Shown here in pieces: positions 56,235 through 62,151 of a DNA stretch of 64,000 nt. Each line of letters opens with the position of its first letter. Within the stretch, counting starts at the first letter, position 1. A program made the translations under genes and the position numbers. Source of the stretch: Gaetbulibacter saemankumensis DSM 17032 (GTDB lineage: Bacteria > Bacteroidota > Bacteroidia > Flavobacteriales > Flavobacteriaceae); NCBI RefSeq assembly GCF_000425645.1, contig NZ_KE384430.1, positions 917,492 to 981,491 on the forward strand, written 5' to 3'. The notes under the pieces were generated by a model, which worked only from the letters and a program-made list of their open reading frames with translations, was not told the origin of the DNA and did not search any database.

Positions 56235-57233
56235 ATGCAAAAAATCACAAAAGAGGTTTACCTCAAATGGTATGAAGATATGTTGTTCTGGAGAAAGTTT
56301 GAAGATAAACTAGCTGCAGTTTACATACAGCAAAAAGTAAGAGGATTTCTTCACTTATATAATGGTCAAGAAGCAGTGTTAGCAGGAGCGCTGCACGCTA
56401 TGGACTTGACAAAAGATAAAATGATTACTGCGTATAGAAATCACGTTCAGCCAATAGGTATGGGTGTTGATCCAAAACGTGTTATGGCAGAATTATATGG
56501 AAAAGGTACAGGAACCTCTCAAGGTTTAGGTGGTTCTATGCATATCTTTTCTAAGGAGCACCGTTTTTATGGTGGTCACGGTATTGTAGGAGGGCAGATT
56601 CCTTTAGGAGCAGGTATTGCCTTTGGGGATAAATATCATGGTAGTGATGCAGTAACTTTATGCTGTTTTGGTGATGGTGCTGCCCGTCAGGGATCTTTGC
56701 ATGAGACTTTTAACTTAGCCATGTTATGGAATCTTCCGGTAGTTTTTGTGTGTGAGAATAATGGTTATGCTATGGGAACGTCTGTAGAGCGTACTGCAAA
56801 TCACACTGAAATCTGGAAATTAGGTTTAGGTTATGATATGCCATGTGGGCCAGTAGACGGAATGAATCCGGTTAAAGTGGCCGAAGCGTTCGATGAAGCT
56901 ATTCAGCGCGCGCGTAAAGGTGGAGGTCCAACGTTCTTAGAGCTAAAGACCTATAGGTATAGAGGACATTCTATGAGTGATGCGCAACATTACAGAACAA
57001 AGGACGAAGTAGAAGAATACAAGAAAATTGACCCTATTACTCAAGTAAAGGATGTTATTCTTGAAAATAATTATGCTTCAGAGGAAGATATTAAAGTTAT
57101 TGATAAACGCGTGAAGGATCTTGTTTCTGAATGTGAGAAGTTTGCTGAAGAGTCTCCATGGCCAGAAAAGAATGTTATGTACGATGTCGTATATGAACAA
57201 GAAGATTATCCATTTATCCAACACAAATTATAA
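56235..57233 (+). CDS. pdhA: Pyruvate dehydrogenase E1 component, alpha subunit
   Basis: 332 residues of the heterotetrameric E1 type. The TPP motif GDGAARQGSLHETFNLA (about 138-154) is followed by ENNGYAMGT (about 165-173), with YRGHSMSDAQHYR and the serine loop at about 235-247. It decarboxylates pyruvate and passes acetyl to lipoyl-E2. The beta subunit gene is not in the window and must lie elsewhere; in many flavobacteria pdhA and the E2 gene are adjacent without pdhB. The E2 gene begins three bases after this stop. Confidence 0.95.
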   Translation: MQKITKEVYLKWYEDMLFWRKFEDKLAAVYIQQKVRGFLHLYNGQEAVLAGALHAMDLTKDKMITAYRNHVQPIGMGVDPKRVMAELYGKGTGTSQGLGGSMHIFSKEHRFYGGHGIVGGQIPLGAGIAFGDKYHGSDAVTLCCFGDGAARQGSLHETFNLAMLWNLPVVFVCENNGYAMGTSVERTANHTEIWKLGLGYDMPCGPVDGMNPVKVAEAFDEAIQRARKGGGPTFLELKTYRYRGHSMSDAQHYRTKDEVEEYKKIDPITQVKDVILENNYASEEDIKVIDKRVKDLVSECEKFAEESPWPEKNVMYDVVYEQEDYPFIQHKL

Positions 57234-57236
57234 AAT

Positions 57237-58859
57237 ATGGCAATAGTAGTAAATATGCCGCGTTTAAGCGATACTATGGAAGAAGGTACCGTAGCAACGT
57301 GGTTGAAAAAAGTAGGAGATAAGATAGAAGAAGGTGATATTTTAGCAGAAATTGAAACTGATAAAGCCACCATGGAGTTCGAATCTTTTAATGAAGGAAC
57401 TTTGCTTCATATTGGTGTTCAGGAAGGTGAAACAACAAAAGTTGATGAGCTTTTAGCTATAATAGGAGACGAAGGAGAAGATATTTCTGCTCTACTAAGT
57501 GGGGGGAGCTCGGCTTCAGTTAATGAAGAAGTGCCTGCAGCTACTGAAGAAGTGGCAAATGAAGTAACAGAAACTACTTCTGAAGCCGTTTCATTGCCTG
57601 AGGGAGTTATCGTAGTAACGATGCCTCGTTTAAGTGATACTATGGAAGAGGGTACGGTTGCTACCTGGTTGAAAAAAGTTGGAGATACTGTTGAAGAAGG
57701 TGATATCTTGGCAGAGATTGAAACAGATAAGGCCACCATGGAATTTGAATCATTCCAGTCAGGAACACTTTTAGAAATAGGATTACAAGAAGGAGAGTCG
57801 GCAAAAGTGGATTCATTATTAGCTATTATAGGCCCAGCGGGAACAGATGTTTCTGGTGTGGCAGCTAATTTTAATGCGTCATCAACGGTAGCCACAGTAA
57901 AAGAGGAATCTGTACCGAAGTCAGTAGCTTCAAAAGCAACTGAGGCTCCAAAGACGGAGGCTCCTAAACAAGAAACTCCAAAGAGAAAACCTGTCAAAAA
58001 TGAAAGTGGAAGAATATTTGTTTCGCCTCTAGCAAAGAAATTAGCTGAAGAGAAGGGTATTAACTTAGCTAAAATTCAAGGTACAGGTGAGAATGGACGT
58101 ATTGTAAAATACGACGTTGAGAATTATGAGCCGGCTCAAGGTGCTGCTTCAGTTGGTAAGTTTGTGCCAGCTGGACAGGAAGATTTTGAAGATGTGCCTA
58201 ACTCACAAATGCGTAAAGCGATAGCTAAGGCATTAACAAATTCTAAGTTCTCCGCGCCACATTATTACTTAAATGTTGAGTTCGATATGGAGAATGCTAT
58301 AGCATTCCGTGCACAGTTTAACTCGATTCCAGATACGAAAATCTCGTATAACGACATGGTGGTGAAGGCTTGTGCGTTGGCTTTAAAGCAGCATCCACAA
58401 GTAAACTCACAATGGTTTGCAGATAAAATGCGTTTAAATAACCATGTGCATATTGGTGTTGCTGTAGCAGTACCGGATGGATTGGTAGTGCCTGTAGTTA
58501 AGTTTGCTAACGAACAATCTTTACCGCAGATAGGGGCAGAAGTTAAAGAATTGGCTGGAAAAGCACGTAACAAAAAATTAACGCCAGCCGATATGGAAGG
58601 CAGTACGTTTACCGTGTCTAATTTAGGTATGTTTGGTATAGATACATTTACATCGATCATTAATCAACCAAATTCGGCAATTTTATCAGTTGGGAATATT
58701 GTGCAAAAACCTGTTGTGAAAAATGGGCAGATTGTCGTTGGAAATACAATGAAAGTATCTTTGGCTTGTGACCATAGAACTATTGATGGGGCAACTGGAG
58801 CGCAATTCCTTCAAACCTTAAAAGGATATATTGAAAATCCTTTAACAATGGTTGTATAA
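57237..58859 (+). CDS. pdhC: Pyruvate dehydrogenase E2, dihydrolipoyl acetyltransferase with two lipoyl domains
   Basis: 540 residues. Two near-identical lipoyl domains (about 2-78 and 125-200) each contain MPRLSDTMEEGTVATWLKK and TDKATMEF, with lipoyl lysines K43 and K165. A Pro/Ala/Lys/Glu linker leads to the peripheral subunit-binding domain (FVSPLAKKLAEEKGINLAKI, about 260-280), another linker, and the catalytic core with DHRTIDGATG (about 510-519), whose His and Asp are the acetyltransferase residues. The acetyl-CoA-forming core closes the complex. The duplication of lipoyl domains is common in E2. The gene is coupled to pdhA and ends at a terminator. Confidence 0.95.
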   Translation: MAIVVNMPRLSDTMEEGTVATWLKKVGDKIEEGDILAEIETDKATMEFESFNEGTLLHIGVQEGETTKVDELLAIIGDEGEDISALLSGGSSASVNEEVPAATEEVANEVTETTSEAVSLPEGVIVVTMPRLSDTMEEGTVATWLKKVGDTVEEGDILAEIETDKATMEFESFQSGTLLEIGLQEGESAKVDSLLAIIGPAGTDVSGVAANFNASSTVATVKEESVPKSVASKATEAPKTEAPKQETPKRKPVKNESGRIFVSPLAKKLAEEKGINLAKIQGTGENGRIVKYDVENYEPAQGAASVGKFVPAGQEDFEDVPNSQMRKAIAKALTNSKFSAPHYYLNVEFDMENAIAFRAQFNSIPDTKISYNDMVVKACALALKQHPQVNSQWFADKMRLNNHVHIGVAVAVPDGLVVPVVKFANEQSLPQIGAEVKELAGKARNKKLTPADMEGSTFTVSNLGMFGIDTFTSIINQPNSAILSVGNIVQKPVVKNGQIVVGNTMKVSLACDHRTIDGATGAQFLQTLKGYIENPLTMVV

Positions 58860-58903: not shown

Positions 58904-58940
58904 AAGCCGCAATTATTTACAAATAATTGCGGCTTTTTTT
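58904..58940 (+). terminator. Terminator of pdhA-pdhC
   Basis: Perfect 15-bp stem AAGCCGCAATTATTT / AAATAATTGCGGCTT with a T-run. A first hairpin, AGTCTGAAT / ATTCAGACT, sits just upstream (about 58865-58887). The T-run overlaps the end of the minus-strand gene at 58939. Confidence 0.93.
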
Positions 58941-59211
58941 ATTCTGAGGTAACAGGGTCTATAATTGCTGATACTTCTGTTACTAAATTAGCTGGAAAGC
59001 CACCTTGTTTGGCATGCTCCAGTACCATTTCTTTGTTAGGCGCTATGTAAACACAATATATTTTATTGTCGGTTACATAACTGTGTACCCAATTTATTTC
59101 GGGGCCTAAATTTTTTAACACATCACATGATGTTATAGAGATCGATTTTAATTCCTCGGGAGAAAGTTCTCCTGCTCCAGGAATCTCCCTTTCAATAACA
59201 TATTTTGGCAT
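58939..59211 (-). CDS. Cytoplasmic DUF4242 protein
   Basis: 90 residues without signal peptide: MPKYVIEREIPG, ELSPEELKSISITSC, LGPEINWVHSYVTDNKIYCVYIAPNKE, FPANLVTEV. This is the DUF4242 (PF14026) pattern, a ferredoxin-like dimeric fold; a related actinobacterial protein (SCO4226) is reported to bind nickel. The Cys pair C29 and C53 is shared with the exported paralogue at 59720, and C53 aligns with C51 of the regulator at 60226. Ligands of a metal are not proven for this subgroup, which has few histidines (H43, H66). It lies 19 bases after the truncated hemoglobin gene, which suggests joint expression. Confidence 0.82.
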   Translation of the reverse strand: MPKYVIEREIPGAGELSPEELKSISITSCDVLKNLGPEINWVHSYVTDNKIYCVYIAPNKEMVLEHAKQGGFPANLVTEVSAIIDPVTSE

Positions 59212-59230
59212 GATTTTAAAGTTTAATTAT

Positions 59231-59605
59231 TTATTTAGCAATGATCATTCCTTTAAGTGACCATAAAATGGCCAGGACGTCTTTTTTAGTGTTTTCATCA
59301 ATAGCATTTTCATCCAATGCTATGAAAATATCATCTATCACATGCATATATTCTTCAGGATTAATATTCATACCCCTGTGAGTGGTTTCCATATCTCTTC
59401 CTGAGTAAACAGCAGGACCTCCGCTACCTGAATTAAAGAAATTAATACTATGCTGTATTACCGTGTTGAAATATTCAGGCCTTTCTTTGTATGGAAGGAA
59501 TCGTGCGTTGATATGTGGGTTTTCCATGTGAAGACTAATAGCTCTTTTTACAATGGTTGAGATGCCTTCGTCTCCACCTAATCTTTCAAAAAGTGATTTT
59601 TCCAT
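59231..59605 (-). CDS. Group I truncated hemoglobin
   Basis: 124 residues of the 2-over-2 globin family. The start SLFERLGGDEGISTIVKR, the PHINARFL segment, the TTHRGMNI block with the proximal histidine at H76, and the final helix (DVLAILWSLKGMI) fit group I (GlbN-type). Truncated hemoglobins bind heme and act in oxygen, nitric oxide or peroxide handling. No electron-donor domain is fused. It sits between two DUF4242 genes, an arrangement that I have not seen described. Heme type and partner cannot be told from sequence. Confidence 0.87.
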   Translation of the reverse strand: MEKSLFERLGGDEGISTIVKRAISLHMENPHINARFLPYKERPEYFNTVIQHSINFFNSGSGGPAVYSGRDMETTHRGMNINPEEYMHVIDDIFIALDENAIDENTKKDVLAILWSLKGMIIAK

Positions 59606-59719
59606 ATGTTAATTGTTTTAAATTTCACGTAAATATCTCCAAGAGTAGGTGGACTTAGGCTAATAAGATGTTAAATTCAATTTTATTTAATCTTAATATT
59701 GGGGCTGGGTATAGATTAT

Positions 59720-60109
59720 TTACATTTCAGCTGTGCTTGGGTCTATAATATTGACCACCTCAGATACAGAATTAGCAGGAATACCGGCATCCTTAGCATG
59801 TTTAATTACTAAATCTTTATTAGCTGCTAGATATACACAGTAAATTTTATTGCCAGTAATAAAGCTGTTTACCCATTTAATATCAGGTCCTAAATTATGC
59901 AATACTTTACAAGAATTAAGACTAGCTTGTTTTAATTCTATTTTCGTTAATTTACCGACTTCTGGCATTTCACGTTCTATAACATACATATGTTGGTTTG
60001 GTGTGGCCGCCTCATCTCGTAATAAGTCGGCAATAGATTTGTCTTGACCAAATGTAATTGCTGAAATATTGATTAAGATTAAAATTAAGAATGATTTTAA
60101 AGTTTTCAT
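59720..60109 (-). CDS. Exported DUF4242 protein
   Basis: 129 residues. A signal peptide (LKSFLILILINISAITFGQ, cleavage near 22) precedes a DUF4242 domain (about 40-125): MYVIEREMPE, SLNSCKVLHNLGPDIKWV, NKIYCVYLAANKD, VIKHAKDAGIPAN, IIDPSTAE. It aligns along its length with the 90-residue cytoplasmic protein at 58939, so the two are recent paralogues, one cytoplasmic and one exported. Shared cysteines are C67 and C91. It lies 116 bases downstream of the regulator and 114 upstream of the hemoglobin gene on the same strand. Confidence 0.82.
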   Translation of the reverse strand: MKTLKSFLILILINISAITFGQDKSIADLLRDEAATPNQHMYVIEREMPEVGKLTKIELKQASLNSCKVLHNLGPDIKWVNSFITGNKIYCVYLAANKDLVIKHAKDAGIPANSVSEVVNIIDPSTAEM

Positions 60110-60225
60110 ACTGTTTGATTTTAGTGATTAAAAAATTTAATAGCACTTTAAAATTATATTCTAATTTCTGATTGAAGTTACACAAATAATTCAAATATTA
60201 TAAGTTTTAATGCATTGAAAATAAA

Positions 60226-61329
60226 TTAGTTAGTGTGTTTGTGCTTAGAAATGTAATCTGAAGGAAGTATTTTAAATTTATTTTTAAAGCATTTAGAAAA
60301 ATATGCTAAACTATTAAATCCAGTTTCAAAGGCAATTTCGGATATATTGCCTTTTTCAAGGTTTAGTAAATTTAAAGCTTGAGTTAAACGGTAATCTCTA
60401 ATAAAAGCGTTGGGAGATTTTCCTGTTAAAGTTGTAAGTTTTCTGTAGAGCTGGGATTTGCTATAACCAAGATTTTCACTAAAATTATCGATATTAAATT
60501 CTGAATTTTGCCAGGAGATTTCAACTTCATCCATTAACTGAATAAGGAATGTTTCTTCGGAAGGAGATAGCACCCGAATTTGACTATTATCAGAAATCAG
60601 ACTTCTCTGTTCACTTTTAAAGAGAGTTTTCACCTCGTATGAAATAGTTATATCGGCATCCACTATTTCACACATTCGAGAAATTAAAGAAATAGTATCT
60701 TCAAAAATTTGAGGTTTATTCGTTACAGGTTCTCCTGAGGCAATCGCTATTTTAATGTGGGTTGATGGGGTTGAATATTTAGGCTTTAAGTCCGATTCTA
60801 TTTTTAAAGCGGTCTTAATGGCGTTTACAGCAGATTTAAATGAAATTAAATAAAAGCTCGTGTTTCTTTTGACAATATTACCGTGATGTTTTTCAATTAA
60901 TTTTACAATTTCGGTATCAAAGTTTTTTGAAATCGATTTAGAAACGGTAGAATTTTGCTTGTATATTATTCGATTAGAGTTAATGGCCATTAAAATGCGA
61001 TAAGCCGAGTCGTTAATAATATTGAGTTCTTTACTTTGGTCTTTCTCAGGATCTGAAATTCTGCCCAAAAAAGATTCTACAATGGTAGGTTCTACCTCTA
61101 TAATAGTGTTTGGTACATCGCCATGAGCGTGTTTGTGCATGCGTGTAATAGCTTCTTTGTTTGGAGCTTCAATAAGGCAAAACACATTTTTACGCTTTTG
61201 GTCGAACCAATAGGTAAAACCACGGCAACCATACTCGTGTTCAATTTTTAAGTCTTCTTGATGTATCTCTGCCAACACTTCAGCCGAAACACCTTCCGAG
61301 ACATCGTGACGATCCATAAATATAGGCAT
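60226..61329 (-). CDS. AraC-type regulator with N-terminal DUF4242 and degenerate cyclase-like domain
   Basis: 367 residues. Residues 1-85 are a DUF4242 domain of the nickel-protein (SCO4226-like) spelling: MPIFMDRHDV, WFDQKRKNVFCLIEAPNKEA, MHKHAHGDVPNTIIEVEP, with histidines at 8, 23, 65, 67 and 69. Residues about 135-240 resemble a class III nucleotide cyclase: FDTEIVKLIEKHHGNIVKR, AIASGEP, FEDTISLISRMCEIVDADITIS; but the metal Asp motif (KxxGDG) is replaced by KRNTSFY, so catalysis is unlikely. Residues 265-362 are an AraC/XylS helix-turn-helix pair (NIDNFSENLGYSKSQLYRKL and ISEIAFETGFNSLAYFSKCFK). It should sense via DUF4242 and bind DNA, and the genes downstream are likely targets. The ligand is unknown. 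Confidence 0.85.
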   Translation of the reverse strand: MPIFMDRHDVSEGVSAEVLAEIHQEDLKIEHEYGCRGFTYWFDQKRKNVFCLIEAPNKEAITRMHKHAHGDVPNTIIEVEPTIVESFLGRISDPEKDQSKELNIINDSAYRILMAINSNRIIYKQNSTVSKSISKNFDTEIVKLIEKHHGNIVKRNTSFYLISFKSAVNAIKTALKIESDLKPKYSTPSTHIKIAIASGEPVTNKPQIFEDTISLISRMCEIVDADITISYEVKTLFKSEQRSLISDNSQIRVLSPSEETFLIQLMDEVEISWQNSEFNIDNFSENLGYSKSQLYRKLTTLTGKSPNAFIRDYRLTQALNLLNLEKGNISEIAFETGFNSLAYFSKCFKNKFKILPSDYISKHKHTN

Positions 61330-61467: not shown

Positions 61468-62151
61468 ATGCAGAAAAATATAATCATTACCGGAACAAGT
61501 CGAGGAATAGGTTTTGAATTAGTACAATTATTTGCAAAGGCAGGGCATCGAATTCTGGCGCTTTCCAGAAATGAGCGGCCTATTAATGATTTAAATTTAA
61601 GTAATGTAACCACATTTTCTTTCGATTTAAGTGATGAGAATGCCTATTCTAAAGTTGAGGATTTTATAAATGCAAATTGGGAGCAGGTAGATGTGTTGAT
61701 AAACAATGCCGGTATGTTGGTTAACAAACCATTCTCTGAAATTACTATGGCCGATTTTGAAGCCGTATATAAAACCAATGTATTTGGAGTAGCAGAACTT
61801 ACGCGAGTAGTTTTACCTTTTATGAAACAAAATAGTCATGTAGTAACTATAAGCTCTATGGGTGGTGTACAGGGTAGTATGAAATTTCCAGGCCTAGCCG
61901 CTTATAGCTCTAGTAAAGGCGCTGTTATAACTTTAACCGAGTTATGGGCTGAAGAATATAAAGAAAGTGGCATTTCATTTAATGTGCTCGCGTTAGGGGC
62001 TGTTCAAACAGAGATGTTAGAGGAAGCTTTTCCCGGCTACCAGGCACCAACTACTGCATTGGAAATGGCAGAATATATTTCTGATTTTGCTTTAAACGGG
62101 AATAAATATTACAACGGCAAATTGTTACAGGTTTCTAATTCTACGCCTTAA
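61468..62151 (+). CDS. Short-chain dehydrogenase/reductase (SDR)
   Basis: 227 residues of the classical SDR fold. TGTSRGIG (8-15) is the NAD(P) motif, NNAG (about 78-81) the fold motif, and the catalytic Tyr-Lys are in YSSSK near 151-155, with the Ser before them in SSMGG. It reduces or oxidises a carbonyl or alcohol; the substrate is not predictable. The next gene (HAD) begins two bases after its stop. The initial TATCTTTAG before the start is one base off the -7 consensus. Confidence 0.9.
   Translation: MQKNIIITGTSRGIGFELVQLFAKAGHRILALSRNERPINDLNLSNVTTFSFDLSDENAYSKVEDFINANWEQVDVLINNAGMLVNKPFSEITMADFEAVYKTNVFGVAELTRVVLPFMKQNSHVVTISSMGGVQGSMKFPGLAAYSSSKGAVITLTELWAEEYKESGISFNVLALGAVQTEMLEEAFPGYQAPTTALEMAEYISDFALNGNKYYNGKLLQVSNSTP

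Follow-up and report, generated by a model that had tools for sequence, protein, structure and literature searches.

One-component activators of the AraC/XylS group bind, through a double helix-turn-helix (HTH), a direct-repeat operator beside the promoter, and a site that abuts the core promoter represents a usual geometry for AraC-type activation. A different arrangement, in which an N-terminal sensor precedes a class III nucleotidyl-cyclase domain, is found in the BLUF photoactivated adenylyl cyclases (such as OaPAC and bPAC); the BLUF sensor fold is ferredoxin-like, and class III cyclase-type domains normally pair. The subject of the present analysis is a group of four genes in a 64,000-nucleotide stretch of the genome of Gaetbulibacter saemankumensis DSM 17032, a member of the Flavobacteriaceae (contig NZ_KE384430.1, positions 917,492 to 981,491; this whole stretch is referred to below as 'the window'). 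These genes encode a 367-residue regulator (termed REG, as are its homologues) with an N-terminal DUF4242 (PF14026) domain, an exported small DUF4242 protein, a truncated haemoglobin and a cytoplasmic small DUF4242 protein. They probably constitute a self-contained one-component signalling operon, in which REG activates the exported DUF4242 protein, a bis-histidyl globin and the cytoplasmic DUF4242 protein. A known relative of the small proteins, SCO4226 of Streptomyces coelicolor (structures 4oi3 and 4oi6), likewise consists of a PF14026 domain of ferredoxin-like fold, and is a stand-alone nickel protein for which weak binding of the metal (dissociation constant 10 uM) and a nickel-dependent induction of at most about 3-fold are reported (PMC4186839).

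The original prediction, which was made from the window alone, had recognized four consecutive minus-strand genes of which three encode DUF4242 proteins (one exported, one cytoplasmic) and the fourth a group I truncated hemoglobin, and each of these assignments was borne out by open reading frames, by Pfam and by the nearest solved relatives of the globin, with the Sec-type leader of the 129-residue protein and its absence from the 90-residue protein judged by eye. The cyclase-homology domain of REG and an operator with its -7 box were absent from that description. The order of transcription is REG, exported small DUF4242 protein, globin and cytoplasmic small DUF4242 protein, with intergenic gaps of 116, 114 and 19 bp (Table 1). 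The three DUF4242 proteins match PF14026 with E-values of 4.5e-20, 6e-20 and 6.7e-26 (72.0, 71.7 and 90.7 bits, relative to a gathering cut-off of 28.5) and therefore belong to the family; a whole-genome search returned exactly three such matches in 3.09 Mb, every one of them inside the four-gene cluster.

Table 1. Features of the four-gene locus and its surroundings (positions are those of the window)
Feature	Position	Strand	Basis or detail
REG, one-component regulator, 367 residues	60226-61329	minus	Open reading frame; DUF4242 (PF14026), class III cyclase-homology and AraC HTH
DUF4242 (PF14026) domain of REG, residues 4-79	61093-61320	minus	Pfam
Degenerate class III nucleotidyl-cyclase-homology domain of REG, approximately residues 109-247	60589-61005	minus	Profile and structure matches
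AraC-type double HTH of REG, residues 285-360	60250-60477	minus	HTH_18, 8e-19; 3lsg, Z 16.5
REG operator (predicted), a pair of direct half-sites spaced by 21 bp	60178-60215	minus	Position weight matrix score 14.4
Predicted -7 element, TAATTTTA	60149-60156	minus	Differs from TAnnTTTG at one position; follows the operator at exactly 21 bp
Exported small DUF4242 protein, 129 residues	59720-60109	minus	PF14026; hydrophobic leader of Sec type, judged by eye
Group-N (group 1) truncated haemoglobin, 124 residues	59231-59605	minus	PF01152; F8 His76, E10 His52, B13 His26
Cytoplasmic small DUF4242 protein, 90 residues	58939-59211	minus	PF14026; without leader; model best matches SCO4226
Stem-loop	58904-58935		Just past the last stop codon of the operon, before the convergent pyruvate dehydrogenase E2 gene
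Pyruvate dehydrogenase E1/E2 and SDR genes flanking the module	56235-58859 and 61468-62151		

The association of REG with the globin was established by its distribution among related genomes. In a family sample of 149 genomes (one per genus; 39 contain PF14026), the window globin finds matches in 11 genomes, and all eight of the globins at 60-100% identity lie no more than one gene away from a DUF4242-AraC regulator; three weaker matches (41, 28 and 25% identity) do not. As a control, the whole truncated-globin family was located in the same genomes, at 34 places in 31 of them. Seven of these places are the REG-linked ones (the eighth, in genome G115, is detected only with the window globin as the query), and none of the other 27 lies near a PF14026 place when the two sets are compared by eye. 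The co-occurrence that the original prediction had proposed for examination is therefore not random, and the neighbourhood of REG and globin does not arise by chance. A further scan of named genomes, seeded with an alignment of the eight globins and represented here by the best 80 of 81 confirmed stretches, returned loci that by their titles belong mostly to several orders of Bacteroidota, together with metagenome-assembled genomes (MAGs) labelled Ectothiorhodospiraceae and Ignavibacteria. REG is present at 63 of these 80 loci, on the same strand as the globin in 62 and directly adjacent to it in 54 (including one divergent pair), and the gaps between immediate neighbours range from 46 to 212 bp, with a single exception of 443 bp. 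The full order of REG, small DUF4242 gene, globin and small DUF4242 gene recurs in Aestuariibaculum marinum and A. suncheonense (L094 and L095), and one locus (L066:6511-10926, in a genome, G129, with six PF14026 matches) carries four REG paralogues in tandem. Taken as a whole, the distribution supports the four genes as a real and conserved module.

The gaps between REG and globin at the 54 loci have a 38-bp element in common, which is composed of direct half-sites approximating TGAAYYAAAATT and TTTGAAYYAAATGT, 21 bp apart. Expectation maximization on these gaps yielded 1744 bits (40 restarts), as compared with 475-495 bits for five shuffled sets (12 restarts each). A position weight matrix (PWM) built from 30 non-redundant sites was used to scan both strands of 131 loci (1.87 Mb); one mononucleotide shuffle of the same sequence gave no match above 18, two above 15 and six above 13, and sites in relatives score up to 36. 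The operator predicted in the gap downstream of REG in the window is the best-scoring site of its 64 kb, the next reaching 10.8. Once the six loci present in both the globin set and the family set had been dropped from the latter, 31 family-set sites scored at least 14, of which 15 lie downstream of REG, five upstream of a small DUF4242 gene, two upstream of a gene for an oxidoreductase dependent on flavin adenine dinucleotide (FAD), four upstream of REG itself and five elsewhere; 26 of the 31 thus adjoin genes of these three kinds (duplicates dropped). The sequence TAnnTTTG, which is the Bacteroidota -7 element, was kept out of the training of the matrix. Among the 81 strong sites (score at least 20), it nevertheless follows the element at a distance of 21 bp (42 sites) or 22 bp (four sites) in 46 cases, divided between the globin set (36 of 58) and the family set (10 of 23), and in two further strong sites it occurs elsewhere within the next 60 bp. 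REG would accordingly be expected to act as an activator rather than a repressor, because the predicted operator abuts the core promoter in the manner typical of AraC-type activators.

Several observations weigh against an operon under the control of REG and its operator, or limit the generality of such an arrangement. The site in the window is weak, with a score of 14.4 where relatives reach 36, and one position of the -7 box that follows it is mismatched. A site was found downstream of 60 of the 63 REG genes in the globin set, a count that is partly circular in that the matrix was trained on globin loci, and directly downstream of only 15 of the 36 REG genes in the family set (23 of 36 when up to 950 bp upstream is allowed); the shuffled controls, moreover, leave shared ancestry in place. 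Similarity among the HTH regions of REG does not covary significantly with the presence of a site (p 0.13; 23 with and 13 without). When the operator pattern was searched throughout the genome, it gave 20 matches as compared with 17 for a reversed control, an absence of excess that offers no support for a wider regulon. Scored with the matrix, those 20 loci include four above 11, namely the window operator, followed by sites at 13.7, 12.5 and 11.0, the last of which sits within a coding frame; neither the genome-wide pattern nor the matrix at these 20 loci revealed a clear further target. REG is absent from 17 of the 80 globin loci (three of which, L116, L157 and L169, include less than 1 kb of upstream sequence). 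Finally, in an even draw of 395 genomes from the phylum, which contains 14 globin places in 13 genomes, the module was found in its own genome only, and the genus sample consisted of that same genome alone.

The regulator itself combines three domains. The AlphaFold model of REG has a mean predicted local distance difference test (pLDDT) score of 85.8. Its C-terminal region matches HTH_18 (68.2 bits, cut-off 33.6) as well as HTH_AraC, and superposes in the predicted model on the yesN HTH with a Z-score of 16.5, which places it among the AraC/XylS double-HTH proteins. The middle domain belongs to the class III cyclase-homology fold by both profile and structure: a profile of 45 REG sequences matches 3mr7 (3.9e-14) and Ma1120 (1.5e-13) among PDB sequences, and the predicted model aligns with Ma1120 (4wpa) over 141 residues (Z 15.6, root-mean-square deviation 3.2). 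At the columns of Ma1120 that presumably hold the metal aspartates, REG of the window has Asn117 and Ser158, and aspartate is found in one and in 10 of the 45 sequences, respectively, and in none at both columns. Assignment as a catalytic class III nucleotidyl cyclase was therefore rejected, and catalysis by this domain is unlikely because the metal-binding positions are not kept. BLUF cyclases form the top Foldseek matches to the REG model and resemble it in the succession of sensor and cyclase domain, but their whole-chain superposition is poor (root-mean-square deviation of approximately 15-17), their sensor belongs to another family, and they lack the AraC head that in REG accompanies the loss of the metal aspartates. 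Unlike the AraC/XylS activators, in turn, REG has as its sensor a DUF4242 domain joined to a degenerate cyclase-homology domain.

The 124-residue globin matches Bac_globin (PF01152) at 1.7e-9 (38.4 bits, cut-off 21). Of 21 PDB sequences that match it at E-values up to 0.1, the best fifteen are named group 1 or HbN, and Shewanella benthica TrHbN-2 (7tt9 and 8ugz; 1.6e-24) is its nearest relative of known structure; with its F8 histidine, the protein is thus a group-N truncated haemoglobin. Positions mapped by alignment to TrHbN-2, with the numbering of PMC11904497, define a pocket of F8 His76, E10 His52, B13 His26, B10 Ile23, E7 Val49, E11 Ser53 and CD1 Phe36. This pocket is well conserved among 64 REG-linked globins (those of the 63 loci and the window), in which F8 His and B13 His are invariant, E10 is His in 62, B10 is Val or Ile in 62, E7 is Ile or Val in 63, and E11 is Thr or Ser in all 64. 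At the 17 loci without REG, E10 is again His in 16, so that this residue does not distinguish the REG-linked globins; Leu occupies E11 in nine of the 17 and in none of the REG-linked globins. Like TrHbN-2, the window globin has hydrophobic residues at B10 and E7 and a histidine at B13, but it has His at E10 and Phe at CD1 where TrHbN-2 has Met and Tyr. The TrHbN-2 paper indicates that a residue at E10 may coordinate the iron, with electron transfer facilitated by the resulting six-coordinate form, that high O2 affinity is associated with Tyr(B10), Gln(E7) and Gln(E11), and that the TrHbN-2 globins as a set are expected to have low O2 affinity (PMC11904497). Because the window globin carries the E10 histidine and has none of the Tyr/Gln/Gln set, it is probably a bis-histidyl, six-coordinate haem protein of redox type and not an NO-dioxygenase. 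None of the terms operon, cluster, gene neighborhood and AraC appears in that paper, and 'duf' is present solely as part of an author's name. By a crude leader rule for Sec-type signals, nine of the 80 globins, encoded beside REG, are apparently exported (L122, L145, L149, L151, L153, L162, L163, L167 and L168).

Within the module, it is the small DUF4242 genes that vary. The 90-residue protein is predicted to adopt a ferredoxin-like fold (pLDDT 79), and its model finds SCO4226 as its best PDB match (Foldseek 8.7e-5; Z 9.1, root-mean-square deviation 2.6, 78 residues aligned); a search by sequence for solved relatives of the small DUF4242 profile returned none that was convincing (one match, E 0.28). 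The original prediction was correct that the three proteins have the same Pfam domain in common, but by their conserved residues these domains are of two types. In REG, positions D6, H8, D26, C35, W41, D43, C51, H65 and H69 are identical in all 45 aligned sequences and H23 in 44, while the invariant residues of the small type (17 sequences) include Y4, E7, R8, S28, C29, W41, C53 and H66; of the residues D6, H8, H23, H65 and H69 that REG keeps, most are absent from the small proteins. A comparison of the two profiles is weak (hhalign probability 14) and would pair C29 with C35, C53 with C51 and H66 with H65. Some exported small relatives resemble lipoproteins, with a leader that by eye ends in Cys (L103, L104, L109 and L110). 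Two other genomes carry tandem DUF4242 proteins, with two PF14026 domains in apparently one frame (G262:C1:4047543-4048046 and G532:C38:18107-18610; 221 and 251 residues). Besides the genome of the window, the phylum sample contains a single globin that adjoins a DUF4242 gene: in a distant genome from another family (G298; L218:5077-5998), the gene for an exported, divergent truncated globin is immediately preceded by a co-oriented small DUF4242 gene. No REG match is found with that pair, near which lie genes that by eye resemble methyltransferases, and this one case suggests that small DUF4242 proteins may be linked to globins independently of REG.

Elsewhere, the commoner set consists of REG, globin and a BBE-type FAD oxidoreductase, since a FAD_binding_4+BBE oxidoreductase is present at 35 of the 80 globin loci, as compared with small DUF4242 genes at 13, and, for 19 of 43 family-set REG genes (window included), belongs to the run of co-oriented genes downstream of REG. 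No orthologue of this oxidoreductase was found in the genome of the window, where the best match is partial and 26% identical. Further partners of REG at other loci include an exported cupin and SnoaL-like proteins. Other genes also intervene between REG and globin, among them one for a transporter-like protein (L112:6114-7304, by eye) and genes for TonB_C-like exported proteins (L113:5849-7673, the first gene by Pfam and the others by eye; L111:4761-6593, by eye).

A mechanism consistent with these features can be proposed, in which the N-terminal DUF4242 domain of REG would sense a cue and relay the signal through the degenerate cyclase-like domain, whereupon the AraC head would bind the direct repeat (60178-60215) that lies shortly before the -7 box, and most likely switch on the exported DUF4242 protein, the globin and the cytoplasmic DUF4242 protein. 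The products of the operon would act on the cue or on its consequences, the globin as a redox haem protein (probably of the bis-histidyl, six-coordinate kind) and the DUF4242 pair as small binding proteins or enzymes, one on each side of the inner membrane; sensor and effectors may have a common ligand. The first choice for the cue is an organic or redox-active small molecule, because the partners of REG at other loci are BBE FAD oxidoreductases, cupins and SnoaL-like proteins; NO, O2 or haem would follow, and then nickel.

An alternative function would be defence against a small organic compound, with DUF4242 used much as the GyrI-like domain (that of Rob, for example) is used, both within regulators and in free proteins that detoxify or trap the compound. 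The presence of a sensor copy and free copies of DUF4242 in one operon fits this explanation, as do the small-molecule enzymes that accompany REG elsewhere, and the GyrI-like family includes hydrolases (PMC5684135) and an albicidin-trapping regulator (PMC10414762), with proteins such as YgiV again placing one small domain both in regulators and in free effectors. GyrI-like proteins are nonetheless a different family, so that the comparison is one of analogy, and the free and sensor subfamilies of DUF4242 are unlike one another at conserved residues and, as noted above, align only weakly by profile. Defence of this kind is a plausible but tentative proposal, with the balance of likelihood somewhat against it.

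An NO-, O2- or haem-responsive circuit, in which the globin serves as partner of the sensor or as a scavenger of NO, draws on the same close linkage of a haem protein to REG (63 of 80 loci, and all eight close family cases) and on the NnrU-family membrane protein encoded between REG and globin at Maribacter-type loci (L077:5315-6076 and L106:7239-7988). NnrU is rare among the module loci, however, and is connected with NO only through the name of its family; the globin does not possess the residues associated with high O2 affinity and enzymatic use (PMC11904497), and REG often heads operons in the family set that contain no globin. The original prediction of a metal-, heme- or NO-responsive circuit is thus likely in regard to sensing itself, given a conserved module with an operator between REG and globin, but nothing in the window points to NO, and this form of the circuit is unlikely.

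That DUF4242 relatives may bind nickel had also been put forward in the original prediction, and from this would follow a role in homeostasis of nickel or another divalent metal, with REG as the sensor and the small proteins sequestering the metal, as was proposed for SCO4226. The DUF4242 domain of REG matches 4oi3 at 6.9e-8 and contains a plausible metal pocket (D6, H8, H23, D43 and H65, with H69, C35 and C51 in addition), the best structural match of the small protein is the nickel-bound SCO4226, and that protein provides a precedent for both binding and induction. Against this, REG keeps only H23 and D43 of the seven alignable SCO4226 nickel ligands (H3, H12, H20, H23, E38, D43 and S46). 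With regard to the Ni-1 ligands Asp43, Ser46 and His76, position 43 is Asp in all 45 REG sequences, but position 46 is Arg in 41, Lys in two, Gln in one, His in one and Ser in none, and position 76 falls outside the aligned stretch. None of the three proteins reaches the cut-off of 125 for the nickel equivalog NF033706 (REG scores 56.1, the cytoplasmic small protein 12.3, and the exported one gives no match), no nickel transporter or enzyme is present among that part of the neighbouring genes that is annotated, and the affinity of SCO4226 for nickel is itself weak. A nickel sensor was accordingly set aside as the leading answer, and nickel homeostasis is regarded as distinctly improbable.

The pyruvate dehydrogenase E1/E2 and short-chain dehydrogenase/reductase (SDR) genes that flank the module form an interval that holds some form of it in several genera, with partner genes exchanged: a full-length E2 homologue (more than 530 residues) is present at 10 of the 50 loci in the family set and 11 of the 80 in the globin set, and SDR at 11 and 17, some records occurring in both sets. 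That the four genes are neighbours merely by chance, or by virtue of this common chromosomal site, is nonetheless very improbable, given that REG and globin adjoin one another at many loci outside the interval, with other partners and in the Ectothiorhodospiraceae and Ignavibacteria MAGs, and that the spacing of operator and -7 box is conserved. The stem-loop between the operon and the convergent E2 gene fits the latter better, and is poor evidence for an end of the operon, because its T tail is on the plus strand and the single stem-loop found equals the mean of 1.0 in shuffles.

One-component AraC operons are already known, and it is the chain of DUF4242 and cyclase-homology domains, together with the set of partners, that would be new; a search of the literature by titles and the beginnings of abstracts, with subscription papers and bioRxiv mostly outside its reach, found no description of the DUF4242-cyclase-AraC architecture, of the operator or of the link to a globin. 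It is tentatively suggested that these proteins may represent an undescribed family of one-component sensors, present in Bacteroidota and in the two MAGs that bear other labels. In these proteins a ferredoxin-like domain that binds a metal or another ligand would drive DNA binding via a degenerate cyclase domain and activate a dedicated clade of bis-histidyl globins (sometimes exported) and free copies of the sensor domain, with sensor and effectors handling the same molecule. For DUF4242, a term contained in three papers of the literature searched, one of which concerns the function of a member, the locus provides a defined genetic context, comprising a regulator architecture, a conserved operator that could be built into a reporter, and a dedicated clade of globins that carry His at E10. 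The members of that clade are an example of truncated haemoglobins linked with a one-component regulator, and a reporter based on the operator would make the cue of DUF4242 directly screenable.

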